This document shows positions 916 through 36,479 of a stretch of DNA of 64,000 nt, in pieces; position 1 is the first letter of the stretch, and each line of letters starts with the position of its first letter. The stretch comes from Planktothrix sp. PCC 11201 (GTDB lineage: Bacteria; Cyanobacteriota; Cyanobacteriia; Cyanobacteriales; Microcoleaceae): positions 379,492-443,491 of the forward strand of contig NZ_LT797693.1 in NCBI RefSeq assembly GCF_900009135.1, given 5' to 3'. The notes under the pieces were generated by a model. The model was not told where the DNA came from. It was given only the letters and a program-made list of their open reading frames with translations, and did no database searches. The translations under genes were made by a program, and so were the position numbers.

Positions 916-3159
916 TTAATCTTGCCAGAATGGTTGTTCATTTCCTACATGGGTTGTATTAGTAGCACTGTAAATATTGCCCTGTAATTCTTGATAATAG
1001 TCATCATCTAAGAAATTAACATTAATTCCGGCAATGGCAACCCGACGTTTAAAGTCTTCTTGGGTGTAGTCTCGGCCATCAATTAAGGCTCCTTTCGGAT
1101 TAGATACTAATAATTCCCCATTCACATAAACCGAATTAATTAAATTTGGCCACCAAGCATACCCACTATAACTAAATAAAGCCGGAATTCTAATAATTTG
1201 ATCATTTCTGAGATTAAATTCTTTTTTGAGTTGATTAATTAAGGGTTCGATTTTCTGTTTTTGTAAATTCAGATTATGTTGGATTAATAATTGATTATTT
1301 AAGGTAGCTCTGACTGTTGTTTGAGTGCTTAATCCGCGATTAATTGCCGCCCCTTCATAACCTTGTTTTTCCAGTTCTTTTAATAGTTTAACTCCTTCCT
1401 CTGGACTAGCAATTAACATTAAAGGTTCGCCGGAAGCACTAGGAATAAAATTAATAATTTCATCAACATGACGCAACATCAACCAAGAAGTATCAATGGC
1501 AACGGGATCACCTTGAACTTTTTGGGCTTTTAAAAACTCAACAACTTCGGGATTTAAACTAACATTATCAGCTGTGCCATAATAAATTCTTCCCAAAGGA
1601 TAATCAGGTAAAGCGGGAGTTACGGCTAAATTATTATACCAATCTGCCCATTGATTAAAAGCATCTAATTCCCGAGGTTTACCCACTTCAAACCAGCCAA
1701 AATTTTGATTCATTAAAGATTTAGCATAATCATCACTTTCCGCACTTCGGTTTCCTTTTAAAACCACCGGATTTTTCTCTAAACCTTCGGGTTTGGGAAA
1801 CTGAACATAGCCTATTTCTTGAGTTCCTCGCATCCATAAAGTCGCCCCTGGTGTGACTTTAACCTTTGCCCCAGTCTTTTCAACAATGGTTTTTACATCT
1901 TTAATGATAGTTTGATTATCACCGCGATCGCTAATATGAACCTCGGAAACAGGTTCAGTATTATCAGACATAATCCAAGGAGCAACCCCCATAGAAATGC
2001 TATCCGTTGCCACCACAATTCCCTGTTTGCGAGCAATGGCTTTTAAATTAACTAAACCCGACCAATTGCTATTAGCAAATTGTTTTGCTTCTACTCCTAA
2101 AACAATATCTGAACCAAATTCTAAAGGCGTTGTACCCGATAAATCAATAGCTTTCCACCCGGTCGATGTTTTCTGGAAAATATTAATATAGGGTTGTGCT
2201 GCTTGATCAACGGTGAGCAATAATTCAGAACCTTTATACTCTGGATCAACTTTAAAATGAACTAAAGCCAAATCCTTTTCATCTTCAGCCCCATTAACTG
2301 TTTTATCTCGCCAATCGGGTAATCCATTAATATCATCATCATCATTATTAAATAATATTAACGGCCCTAGGGATAAAGACCATTGTTCCGGGCGTTGTTG
2401 ATCTTGTTCATTCACAATACCATCTCGGTTTGTATCTCCATAGAGTTTAAACCCGGGAAATTGAGGATTTGCAACGGAAACGGTCGAAATTGTTTGCGGT
2501 TTTTCTGGTTGTTGTTGTTGGGATTGTTGGATTAAGGCGCGTTGATAGGTGGCGATCGCTAAATAACCCTGATATTCTACGGTTTTATCAATAGCTTTAG
2601 AACTCAGAAAAGACTCTCTAGGAATTTTCCGTAGGGTATCAATAGCTTGAATCCATAATTGTTGTGCAGTTTCCCAATCTTCTATTGTATTAGTTTCAGA
2701 TTGTTTACCAAAATTTGCCGCTTGAGTGGCTATTTTTATTACCTGATTCCAAGTTTCCAGGGTTTTTTCTTCAAATTTAATTTGAGCTTCAACTTGGCGA
2801 TTAGCTTTAACTAAAGTTTCGTATTGTTTCAGTTGCAGTTGATATTGCCAAACTTCTAAATTACTATTAATATCAGGAGGACTAGAAACTTTCTTCAATT
2901 CAGCTTTAATCAAATCTTGTAATTGATATAATTCGGCTAAGGATTGGGGTGTAACTTCTGTGGTTTCTGTGTTATAATTGCCCGGAGTACCTGCTTCAAA
3001 TCCTTGCAGTTGCACGCCGGAGTCATTAATCCGATACTCTAAATTGAGATCCGTTGGTGAAGATTGGGCTAAAGTTGAAGGGGCAGGAACTAGGATAATT
3101 CCAACAACTACACCCAAAGCATTAATTAAAGCAACAGCAATGTAGCGCATCCAATTCAT
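916..3159 (-). CDS. Exported protein-arginine-deiminase-like protein, catalytic residues altered
   Basis: A 747-residue protein. A signal peptide occupies residues 1-32 (ends near STLAQ). Residues about 65-225 are helical, followed by an acidic, calcium-loop-like segment (DTNRDGIVNEQD, then FNNDDDDINGLPDW, about 240-290). The C-terminal half aligns from memory with the catalytic domain of animal PADI and cyanobacterial PAD: EIGYVQFP, YPLGRIYYG, FLKAQKVQGDP, HVDEIINFIP, RIPALF. His564 and Asp566 of HVDE match PADI4 His471/Asp473. The position of Asp350 (WMQDE context) reads WMRGT, giving Gly445, and the nucleophile Cys645 (HCGTN context) reads YSATN, giving Ser731. Citrullinating activity is therefore doubtful. 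The ATG at 3159 is preferred over the TTG at 3165. Confidence 0.85.
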   Translation of the reverse strand: MNWMRYIAVALINALGVVVGIILVPAPSTLAQSSPTDLNLEYRINDSGVQLQGFEAGTPGNYNTETTEVTPQSLAELYQLQDLIKAELKKVSSPPDINSNLEVWQYQLQLKQYETLVKANRQVEAQIKFEEKTLETWNQVIKIATQAANFGKQSETNTIEDWETAQQLWIQAIDTLRKIPRESFLSSKAIDKTVEYQGYLAIATYQRALIQQSQQQQPEKPQTISTVSVANPQFPGFKLYGDTNRDGIVNEQDQQRPEQWSLSLGPLILFNNDDDDINGLPDWRDKTVNGAEDEKDLALVHFKVDPEYKGSELLLTVDQAAQPYINIFQKTSTGWKAIDLSGTTPLEFGSDIVLGVEAKQFANSNWSGLVNLKAIARKQGIVVATDSISMGVAPWIMSDNTEPVSEVHISDRGDNQTIIKDVKTIVEKTGAKVKVTPGATLWMRGTQEIGYVQFPKPEGLEKNPVVLKGNRSAESDDYAKSLMNQNFGWFEVGKPRELDAFNQWADWYNNLAVTPALPDYPLGRIYYGTADNVSLNPEVVEFLKAQKVQGDPVAIDTSWLMLRHVDEIINFIPSASGEPLMLIASPEEGVKLLKELEKQGYEGAAINRGLSTQTTVRATLNNQLLIQHNLNLQKQKIEPLINQLKKEFNLRNDQIIRIPALFSYSGYAWWPNLINSVYVNGELLVSNPKGALIDGRDYTQEDFKRRVAIAGINVNFLDDDYYQELQGNIYSATNTTHVGNEQPFWQD

Positions 3160-3312: not shown

Positions 3313-4332
3313 TTATCCAATTCCCAATAAAGGATCACTAATATTAATAATAGAAATACTATTTTTAACAGTATTAACATCGGTAATATTAGCCACTAGA
3401 CCAAAAATATTTCCGGTTGTCGTTTGACGAATAATTATTCCCTGAGATATTCCAGTTGCTAGTTGTAAATTAGCAGTTTGATCAAATGTTTCTAGGGTTA
3501 ATTCTTGTGAATTTAAACTAGCAATAATCACAATTTTATCCCCTTCTGTGGGGTTAAAATCCGTAATGAAATCGGCTTCTGTGGCGTTAACCGGAACTTC
3601 GGAAGCATTTGCACCTAAAATAAAAGTATCAGCATCAGTGCCGCCTGTCAGGATATCAAAGTCTAAATCTCCGATTAAAATATCCCGTCCGGCACTACCT
3701 TCTAAAATATCTTTTCCTTTCCCGCCTCTTAATAAGTCATTTCCATCACCTCCCATTAAGAAATCATCCTCACGATTGCCATTAATAATATCATTTCCCC
3801 CATCGCCATTAAAAGTATCATTTCCCTGACCGCCTCGGAGTAAATCAATGCCTTCGGCACCGGATAATTGATCATTTCCGGTATTACCATTCATAACATC
3901 AGTTTGATTAGAACCCACTAAAATATCATCCCCAGCTAAAGCCAAAATACCCCCCGGATATTCCCTTGTCCATTCGGGCAAAACTAACCCGGTGGGTTGT
4001 TGGGAAATATTAAAATAATTGGCGGGTGCTAAGATATCAATATCATCGGTTAAAACAAACAGTTGAGCAGATTTTCCCGATAATTCGGTTAAGGTTTTAT
4101 AACTGCTTAAAATATTAATATCTTCGAGAATTAGACTCGGTTTCACTTCCAAAGTAGGGGCGGTACTTAGGGTAATTTGGGGGTTTTGTTCTAATAATTT
4201 ATTAACCCAAGGTTCCGCAATGGGTAGAATGGTGTTAAATAAGGGTTCATACTGGGGAAAGAAGGTGAAAATAACGGGTTTAGCAATGGGAAAAATGACA
4301 TTGCTAATGAAGTTAATAATTTTGTTAAACAT
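3313..4332 (-). CDS. RTX-type calcium-binding repeat protein
   Basis: A 339-residue protein with hemolysin-type nonapeptide repeats at residues about 135-225 (GNDTFNGDGGND, GGDGNDLLRGGKGKD, ending in DADTFILG). Such repeats fold into a beta-roll that binds calcium outside the cell and usually accompany type I secretion signals at the C terminus. No Sec signal peptide is evident. The N-terminal 130 residues are hydrophobic and proline-rich with no recognised catalytic domain. No type I secretion genes are nearby. The function beyond calcium binding is unknown. Confidence 0.85.
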   Translation of the reverse strand: MFNKIINFISNVIFPIAKPVIFTFFPQYEPLFNTILPIAEPWVNKLLEQNPQITLSTAPTLEVKPSLILEDINILSSYKTLTELSGKSAQLFVLTDDIDILAPANYFNISQQPTGLVLPEWTREYPGGILALAGDDILVGSNQTDVMNGNTGNDQLSGAEGIDLLRGGQGNDTFNGDGGNDIINGNREDDFLMGGDGNDLLRGGKGKDILEGSAGRDILIGDLDFDILTGGTDADTFILGANASEVPVNATEADFITDFNPTEGDKIVIIASLNSQELTLETFDQTANLQLATGISQGIIIRQTTTGNIFGLVANITDVNTVKNSISIINISDPLLGIG

Positions 4333-35135: not shown

Positions 35136-36479
35136 ATGGTTAGACTTTATGATCAATCCTTTGAAATTTTAAAAAGAGAATTGCAAAAAAATGCTCAGAA
35201 AGATTTAGTCGGGGAAGTGGGGGCAGAAATTATTCTGAAACGTTTGGAAAAAATGCGATCGCAGCCAGGAGAACCCCTGACTTTAGATGAGTTAAATAAC
35301 TTAGTTTCCGATCAATTTCCTGACTTTAATCAATCGGTTTTAAAGCAAGCTGCAAAAGCAAATCATCCCCCCGGAATTGGGTCTAAAATGCTTTTAGGTA
35401 CAGCCATTTTAGGGGGATTTGTAGGAATTGTGGCTCTCGCTAATTTACCCTATCCGATGATTCGCTTTCCCGTTTCAAAAACCGTACCTATTTTATTAAT
35501 TCCCAGTTACATTAGTATGGATTATAACTATCGACAAGCGGTGTCCTTAGTCGAACAATCCGATCAATTAATTAATCAAGCTACGGCAATTACAGATATT
35601 GAATTAGGTATTAAAAAAGTCGAAAAATCTCAACAGCATCTGGATAAACTCCCCGTTTGGTTTTTAGGGTATTATCCTCAAGCTTACTGTTCCTTTATGG
35701 GTTGTGTTTGGCGATTTACCTTCGATGAATATGAAAGTGCGAGAAAGAATATTGGCCGGATGGAATCTAAAATTTTTCAAGAACAAAATGCTTATCAAGC
35801 ATATACAAAAGCTGAACAATTAATCAAAGAATCTCAAAAAAACTTCTCCAAACTTAGCGCTGGAAATCAACAACAACAGATGATTAACCAGTGGCAAAAT
35901 GCTATTGATCAATTAGATAAAATTCCCTCCGCAACCTTAGCCGGAAAATTAGCTGAAAAAGACTTAGAAACCGCCAAACGAGATTTTCAAGAAAAACTGG
36001 GATTTGTCGCGGGAACAATTAAAGGAAATACCTTAATTGATGCGGGGATGCAGTTTGGAATTCAGGCTGCAAAAGCCGCTCAAAATCCGCCTCATACCGC
36101 CAAACAATGGGAACAAGTAATTAAATTATGGCAAGAAGCTATTCGTCGCTTAGAACAAGTTCCAACGGATAATCCTAGTTATTTGGATGCTCAGAAAAAA
36201 TTAGCTGAATATCAATCTAATTTAGGGAGTTCCGAAAGTCGGTTACAAGCGGAAAAAGACGCGGTAGAATCTGTTAAACAGGCAAAAGCTGCGATTGCTC
36301 AATGGCAAACCTCAGCCCGTTCTAAAGAGCCTAATATTGGTTCCTTAATTGGTCAATTAACTGATATTATTAGTATATTAGAACAGGTTCCCGCAGGGAC
36401 AACGGTTAGCGCAGAAGCCCAAAAATTATTAGGATCGGCACGACATACCCATGATAAGTTATCAGAAAAATGGGTTTAA
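35136..36479 (+). CDS. Membrane-anchored helical protein, unknown
   Basis: 447 residues. The first 80 are hydrophilic (EVGAEIILKRLEKMRSQPG). One or two membrane helices lie at about 85-130. The remainder is helical with three related units having the pattern W-x5-LW-x2-AI-x2-L-x2-(V/I)P followed by A-x3-L-x-EYQ (for example QWEQVIKLWQEAIRRLEQVP). The same unit occurs in the N-terminal part of the PAD-like protein at 916-3159. I do not recognise a function; scaffold or cell-envelope role is possible. Confidence 0.7.
   Translation: MVRLYDQSFEILKRELQKNAQKDLVGEVGAEIILKRLEKMRSQPGEPLTLDELNNLVSDQFPDFNQSVLKQAAKANHPPGIGSKMLLGTAILGGFVGIVALANLPYPMIRFPVSKTVPILLIPSYISMDYNYRQAVSLVEQSDQLINQATAITDIELGIKKVEKSQQHLDKLPVWFLGYYPQAYCSFMGCVWRFTFDEYESARKNIGRMESKIFQEQNAYQAYTKAEQLIKESQKNFSKLSAGNQQQQMINQWQNAIDQLDKIPSATLAGKLAEKDLETAKRDFQEKLGFVAGTIKGNTLIDAGMQFGIQAAKAAQNPPHTAKQWEQVIKLWQEAIRRLEQVPTDNPSYLDAQKKLAEYQSNLGSSESRLQAEKDAVESVKQAKAAIAQWQTSARSKEPNIGSLIGQLTDIISILEQVPAGTTVSAEAQKLLGSARHTHDKLSEKWV

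Follow-up and report, generated by a model that had tools for sequence, protein, structure and literature searches.

The closest described systems to the protein considered here are the canonical protein-arginine deiminases (PADs) of cyanobacteria and the catalytically silent human PADI6. The cyanoPADI of Cyanothece sp. 8801, which we take as the canonical type, is reported to be active and calcium-dependent; the same account links three-domain cyanobacterial PADIs to animals and describes the catalytic residues as fully conserved among the PADI homologues that it compares, while Planktothrix is not named in its main text (PMC8826395). PADI6 illustrates how the fold can persist once the chemistry has gone. 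It is described as carrying Ala at the nucleophile position, flanked by two Cys, with the Asp, His, and Asp of the catalytic site kept; its calcium sites are not conserved, it is inactive in vitro, a structural role has been proposed, and it dimerises like PADIs 2-4 (PMC11402830). The title "Inactive protein-arginine deiminase type-6" is attached to some of the solved PADI6 chains. The same source notes that the substrate-bound structure of human PADI4 carries C645A (PMC11402830), an instance of a Cys-less PAD holding its substrate. Among the matches listed in the open-access literature, we recognised no paper treating the exported, Cys-less PAD lineage outlined below.

The window, a 64,000-nucleotide stretch of Planktothrix sp. 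PCC 11201 (contig NZ_LT797693.1, positions 379,492 to 443,491), encodes a PAD-like protein close to its start. Genus codes (g1 and so on), family codes (f1 and so on), genome labels (G), and locus labels (L) are those of our analysis; f1 is the window's family, which we take to be Microcoleaceae in GTDB. The features of the locus, in window coordinates, are as follows.

916..3159, minus strand: PAD-like, predicted exported protein of 747 residues, from ATG at 3159 to stop at 916 (open reading frame, Pfam, phmmer)
3061..3159, minus strand: residues 1-33, predicted to be a signal peptide or signal anchor, with the cleavage site placed by eye (hydropathy, alignment)
2527..2952, minus strand: N-terminal helical module, residues ~70-211 (related stretches in the same genome)
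2041..2445, minus strand: PAD_M domain, residues 239-373 (Pfam)
2401..2436, minus strand: EF-hand-like loop D242-D253 at PADI2 calcium site 6 (alignment)
2272..2349, minus strand: N271-D296 at PADI2 calcium sites 3-5 (N154, D156, E158, D166, D177, D180; alignment)
925..2013, minus strand: PAD_C pentein domain, residues 383-745 (Pfam)
1825..1827, minus strand: Gly445, codon GGA, at the first catalytic Asp (PADI4 D350), a Planktothrix-only change (alignments)
1747..1749, minus strand: Arg471, retained at PADI4 R372 (alignments)
1459..1470, minus strand: HVDE, with His564 at PADI4 H471 and Asp566 at PADI4 D473 (alignments)
967..969, minus strand: Ser731, codon AGT, at the nucleophile Cys (PADI4 C645; alignments)

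By homology, the window protein is a member of the protein-arginine deiminase superfamily, with both PAD_C and PAD_M domains. The PAD/PAD_C profile (PF03068) matches with E 3.6e-55 and 188 bits against a gathering score of 25, and PAD_M (PF08527) marginally, with E 1.1e-05 and 25.5 bits against a cut-off of 24.8. Residues 240-736 align with human PADI2 (phmmer, E 1.1e-45), and a profile of 25 relatives including the window protein aligns with PADI4 through to the C-terminus (E 2.7e-102). Pfam profiles find neither the PAD_N cupredoxin domain of the three-domain, animal-type PADIs nor any other domain in the N-terminal region, and nothing useful emerged from NCBIfam. Canonical cyanobacterial PADs (L046-L056) share PAD_M, PAD_C, and most PAD_M calcium ligands with the window protein, to which they are 26-28% identical over the aligned part. 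They differ in possessing a complete Asp/His/Asp/Cys tetrad (11 of 11) and, in 10 of 11, in having no export stretch by hydropathy.

Two members of that tetrad are replaced in the window protein: the nucleophile Cys by Ser731 and the first Asp by Gly445. The HVDE motif retains the remaining His and Asp, and Arg471 occupies the position of PADI4 R372, which we take to be a substrate contact. A sequence-only reading of this DNA had already called the PAD likeness of the C-terminal half, both substitutions, the intact HVDE, a signal peptide, and a helical N-terminal domain; the PADI2 alignment and the codon at 967-969 uphold the Ser, the Gly column proves specific to Planktothrix, and the other calls hold as well, the signal peptide as a predicted peptide or anchor. 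That reading also left room for a Cys elsewhere in the active site. We looked for one and found no cysteine among all 747 residues, which rules out a displaced nucleophile. More broadly, across PAD_C in 56 family rows, the only column with any Cys is 676, where 5 rows have it. Sequencing error can be rejected because both columns are changed in all 10 Planktothrix genomes read, residue 445 being Gly in every one and residue 731 Ser in nine and Thr in one.

The Cys loss, claimed initially for one protein, is in fact a family-wide feature. The nucleophile could be read in 56 of 57 f1 copies (55 aligned rows plus L087); left unread at this column were L086, which ends before it, the broken canonical gene L057, and the split G542. 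Ser occupies the position in 38 copies, Asp in 13, Thr in 2, Ala in 2, and Met in 1, with Cys in none. The remaining catalytic columns were counted over 56 aligned f1 rows in PADI4 numbering. D350 is Asp in 38, Gly in 10 (Planktothrix), Glu in 4 (g6, g7), and Asn in 4 (g9); H471 is His in 25, Gln in 28 (g8, g9), and Asn in 3 (g7), and is thereby lost in 31; R372, in a stretch where the alignment has gaps, is Arg in 26 and changed or gapped in 30; and D473 is Asp in 55 and Ser in 1 (g3). Trp at W347 and the Glu neighboring Asp473 are present in all 56. In essence, no f1 copy read retains the Cys, the residues at D350, H471, and R372 vary from one genus to another, and those at W347 and D473 hardly change.

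This pattern bears on two readings in which the pocket would still be at work. One is that losing the Cys alone leaves a protein that binds exposed peptidyl-arginine without turning it over, this binding being what it is for. Such trapping remains conceivable because Cys-less PADI4 C645A holds substrate (PMC11402830), most of all for genera g4, g5, g10, and g11, in which all 13 rows retain W347, D350, R372, H471, and D473 and the sole change is Cys to Asp; the near-universal W347 and D473 speak for it too. We judge this reading unlikely, given Gly at D350 in all 10 Planktothrix copies and Asn or Glu in eight others, the replacement of H471 in 31 rows and of R372 in 30, and the concentration of losses at active-site motifs described below. 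The second is an enzyme of altered chemistry, with Ser or another residue serving as nucleophile or base. Ser in 38 of 56 copies and the HVDE retained in Planktothrix would suit it, but other genera carry Asp, Thr, Ala, or Met at that position and have lost different partners, and inspection by eye of the gained columns reveals no common new catalytic set; we regard this as very improbable. Some residual function of the pocket is possible, since W347, Asp473, and the adjoining Glu are nearly always retained.

Beyond f1, the site is essentially whole. Among 27 divergent relatives from the genomes read, 26 have the complete Asp/His/Asp/Cys tetrad, the exception being G470 of family f52, with Ser at the nucleophile and R372 lost; at that locus (L173:7403-9256), E353 is changed as well. 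The full site distinguishes from the window protein its PAD_M- and PAD_C-bearing relatives in f52 (L166-L172, 55-60% identity), f2 (L058, L060, L164), and f45 (L165), the last two families at 42-44% identity. In L060, L164, and L165 the similarity to the window protein extends to its N-terminal region.

When the nucleophile was lost can be read from a tree built with the four catalytic columns omitted, using 78 of 94 aligned rows after 16 near-copies or short rows were set aside; a second tree and a topology test employed 36 rows. In the 78-row tree, the f1 rows group in a single starred clade that arises from within the Cys-bearing rows, and the Cys/no-Cys label changes only twice, against a mean of 24 for shuffled labels. 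Support for the f1 clade is 100/98 in the 36-row tree, and f1 joins f52 with moderate support (84/87). The Cys is thereby shown by the tree as lost at the base of f1, from an ancestor that possessed the catalytic residues now missing across its orthologues. A single origin of all Cys-less rows was considered and set aside: the tree needs two losses and the one-loss topology appears in 0 of 200 bootstrap trees, although the AU test does not reject a single Cys-less clade (p 0.081). G470 is probably an independent second loss.

Loss of the nucleophile has not released the protein from selection. Mean pairwise dN/dS, a measure over non-independent pairs from which those with dS below 0.03 or above 2 were left out, lies between 0.072 and 0.337 for each domain in the three f1 sets tested, well below 1. 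For PAD_C it is 0.080 in Planktothrix, 0.120 in g10/g11, and 0.188 in g9, compared with 0.128 in f2, 0.161 and 0.028 in two small f52 sets (3 pairs each), and 0.106 in canonical PADs (4 pairs) among Cys-bearing sets, so that only g9 stands slightly above them. The f1 PAD-like proteins are under strong purifying selection. Gene integrity agrees: 50 of 57 f1 copies are single full-length frames, 3 run off contig ends, and 4 are broken, namely L087 (G019) and L025 (G055), split between frames, L086 (G024), which ends early, and L038 (G044), whose N-terminal portion lies in a different frame. A broken copy also occurs among canonical genes, L057 (G097) being interrupted by an internal stop. The idea of a decaying pseudogene or functionless relic can draw on the four broken copies and on the 4 of 61 f1 genomes that have no match, but it is already contradicted by the intact frames, the low dN/dS in every domain, and the 154 positions invariant among 15 Cys-less representatives, and we give it almost no credence.

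Where the constraint has relaxed is equally telling. The comparison of column conservation set 15 Cys-less rows, representing 7 groups, against 14 Cys-bearing rows, representing 13. The Cys-bearing relatives have 103 conserved columns, of which 63 keep their conservation in the Cys-less rows and 19 are lost; the seven catalytic or substrate columns fare far worse, with 5 lost and 2 kept (p 0.002). Losses fall on 10 of 21 columns near catalytic residues versus 9 of 82 elsewhere (p 4.8e-4), where a column counts as "near" if it lies within four residues of any of five catalytic columns, a definition adopted with the lost columns already in view. A control with Cys-bearing f52 rows gave no loss at any of the 103 columns that the other Cys rows conserve. 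Conversely, 20 columns are conserved in Cys-less rows and variable in Cys-bearing ones, including K330, R412, Y664, Y667, W669, Y698, and Y721. Because the losses center on active-site columns while other conserved columns are mostly kept, the fold of the Cys-less rows remains under constraint, whereas their active site has for the most part been freed from it.

The calcium sites tell a mixed story. Positions were mapped through the phmmer alignment to PADI2, using its ligands at sites 3-5 and 6. At site 6, D242, N244, D246, and D253 of the EF-hand-like loop are retained in all f1 rows tabulated. The positions of sites 3-5 are retained in the window protein and nearly throughout the f1 genera tabulated except g9, where those of D156, D166, D177, and D180 are mostly R/K, T/V, R, and M, so sites 3-5 cannot be a common feature of the family. 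Sites 1 and 2, which adjoin the active site and are expected of a catalytic PAD, are incomplete in the window protein: E352/D370/S371/D374 of site 2 read T/K/G/S and, of two site-1 positions read, Q350 is R and E354 is kept. Site-2 residues are present in 7 canonical PADs tabulated; loss of site 2 alone is nonetheless no mark of inactivity because the Cys-bearing divergent group also lacks it, with the full set in 0 of 27 relatives read. Calcium binding by the Planktothrix protein is plausible from the ligands that it keeps.

A single hydrophobic, signal-type stretch occurs in the window protein, in hydropathy windows starting at residues 3-15, with none elsewhere. With a fixed cut-off of 1.6, a TM-like stretch ahead of PAD_M is called in 48 of 56 f1 rows, 22 of 27 divergent relatives, and 1 of 11 canonical PADs. 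The eight f1 misses comprise six rows at the end of the fetched stretch and two broken frames (L025, L038), and the five among divergent relatives score 1.34-1.58, below the cut-off. The genome has stretches related to the helical module that follows at 6 places, spread over 5 further proteins. Its closest relative is a Beta-lactamase2 protein (L183:3700-5025) with, by eye, a signal-like start, and another module-bearing protein displays TPR-like repeats by eye. One of the five is encoded in the window itself, at 35136-36479 on the plus strand; it appears by eye to be a membrane protein, with copies of the cyanobacterial helical motif W..A...W..AI..L..IP, a motif that it shares with the N-terminus of the PAD-like protein.

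No f1 genome yielded more than one PAD gene. A PF03068 search returned a match in 57 of 61 f1 genomes, always from one gene, and in 50 of the 52 that are of good quality; the two matches in G019 are pieces of one broken gene. One of the four genomes lacking a match is 55% complete and one 87% complete. All 10 genomes of the window's genus have one match per genome, and five loci related to the window's at 88-96% identity come from Planktothrix (three) and Oscillatoriales MAGs (two). The PAD family is also present in 8 of 8 f52 genomes. Of 388 genomes drawn across the class, 27 matched, mostly in two score groups, canonical (~490-535 bits) and divergent (~180-240 bits). Outside these score groups, two genomes (G221, G407) gave long, fragmentary matches; their homologues (L066-L070, ~950-1130 residues) have a different architecture, with HVDE or HIDE and Cys where readable.

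This distribution weighs against the notion that the protein pairs with an active PAD of the same cell, as a decoy or in a dominant-negative way. The PADI dimerisation that PADI6 is described as sharing (PMC11402830) would provide a mechanism, but a lone PAD gene per genome leaves no partner to poison, and we consider this reading barely credible. Regulation of an active paralogue is rejected on the same finding, that no second PAD gene was found in f1 genomes.

Gene neighborhoods offered no partner either. Across 59 PAD loci no neighbor is common to the family, and a partner gene identified by synteny was rejected for that reason; only local sets occur, such as a response regulator upstream in loci of the g4/g5/g10/g11 type and a membrane protein downstream in g9. 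In the window, a protein with RTX calcium-binding repeats (3313-4332, minus strand) is encoded directly upstream of the PAD-like gene on the same strand. An RTX-repeat gene lies upstream in 4 of 6 further Planktothrix loci (L003, L004, L005, L109; not L006 or L110) and had no match in 6 loci of other genera tried. At four f52 loci (L169, L170, L171, L173) the PAD gene adjoins one for a protein that, by eye, resembles Ser/Thr kinases and has what looks like an extracytoplasmic domain; in many g9 loci (for example, L088) the membrane protein beside the PAD gene clusters with this kinase-like protein. This shared neighbor could reflect an old neighborhood or chance.

Family-wide Cys loss, strong purifying selection, and losses centered on the active site together argue for a conserved, exported pseudo-deiminase. 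We think it rather probable that the window protein belongs to a lineage of such proteins, most likely with a binding or scaffolding role. A protein that has lost its nucleophile, yet is kept and exported, probably has a non-enzymatic job; from the residues lost, no deiminase activity would be expected to remain in f1 proteins, and a scaffold or binding role at the cell envelope may be what selection maintains. The pseudoenzyme proposed by the sequence-only reading is well supported at the level of sequence, as a property of the whole bacterial family. Its further suggestion, of arginine or calcium recognition as a shared role, is unsupported because most pocket residues drift, D350, H471, and R372 among them, and the PAD_M calcium ligands of g9 are largely gone. 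Placement in the group ancestral to animal PADs was only loosely right: the protein is cyanobacterial, but it sits ~2.1 changes per site from canonical cyanobacterial PADs on the tree and has no PAD_N hit.

The course of events can be set out as follows. Sequences of the relatives show that a PAD possessing both the whole Asp/His/Asp/Cys site and an export segment predates the split of f1 from its neighbors, and the tree shows that the nucleophile was then lost in the f1 ancestor. The protein was retained as the genome's only PAD match, exported or anchored, with PAD_M and the pentein fold under strong purifying selection, while much of the disused catalytic site drifted along separate lines in the different genera. 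The product is most likely a folded protein that binds or scaffolds at the cell surface or in the periplasm, and it would do so by way of the N-terminal helical module and of surfaces outside the catalytic pocket. Calcium from the envelope would occupy the PAD_M calcium sites in most genera and thereby make the fold more rigid.

PADI6 is the natural comparison. Both it and the f1 proteins retain the PAD fold after losing the nucleophile from its usual place, and PADI6 resembles genus g9 in having lost calcium ligands as well; the window protein differs in its lack of any Cys, its export segment, and the genus-specific drift seen in f1. Judged by lineage, the two would have separate origins. 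An idea that we consider about as likely as not is that in f1 a non-enzymatic structural protein of the envelope took the place of an exported arginine deiminase, independently of PADI6, and that the Asp-bearing genera may represent an arginine-trapping intermediate.

If this account is true, the f1 lineage would be an independent counterpart to PADI6 and a second natural case of a PAD fold kept for its shape. The lineage is a large bacterial one, and in it catalytic residues are lost while the fold is still under selection. Its Cys-bearing neighbors, at 55-60% identity, allow direct comparison. It also points to a PAD branch with an export segment, the substrates of which, if any, would be envelope proteins, and naming f1 proteins "protein-arginine deiminase" from the domain alone would mislead.
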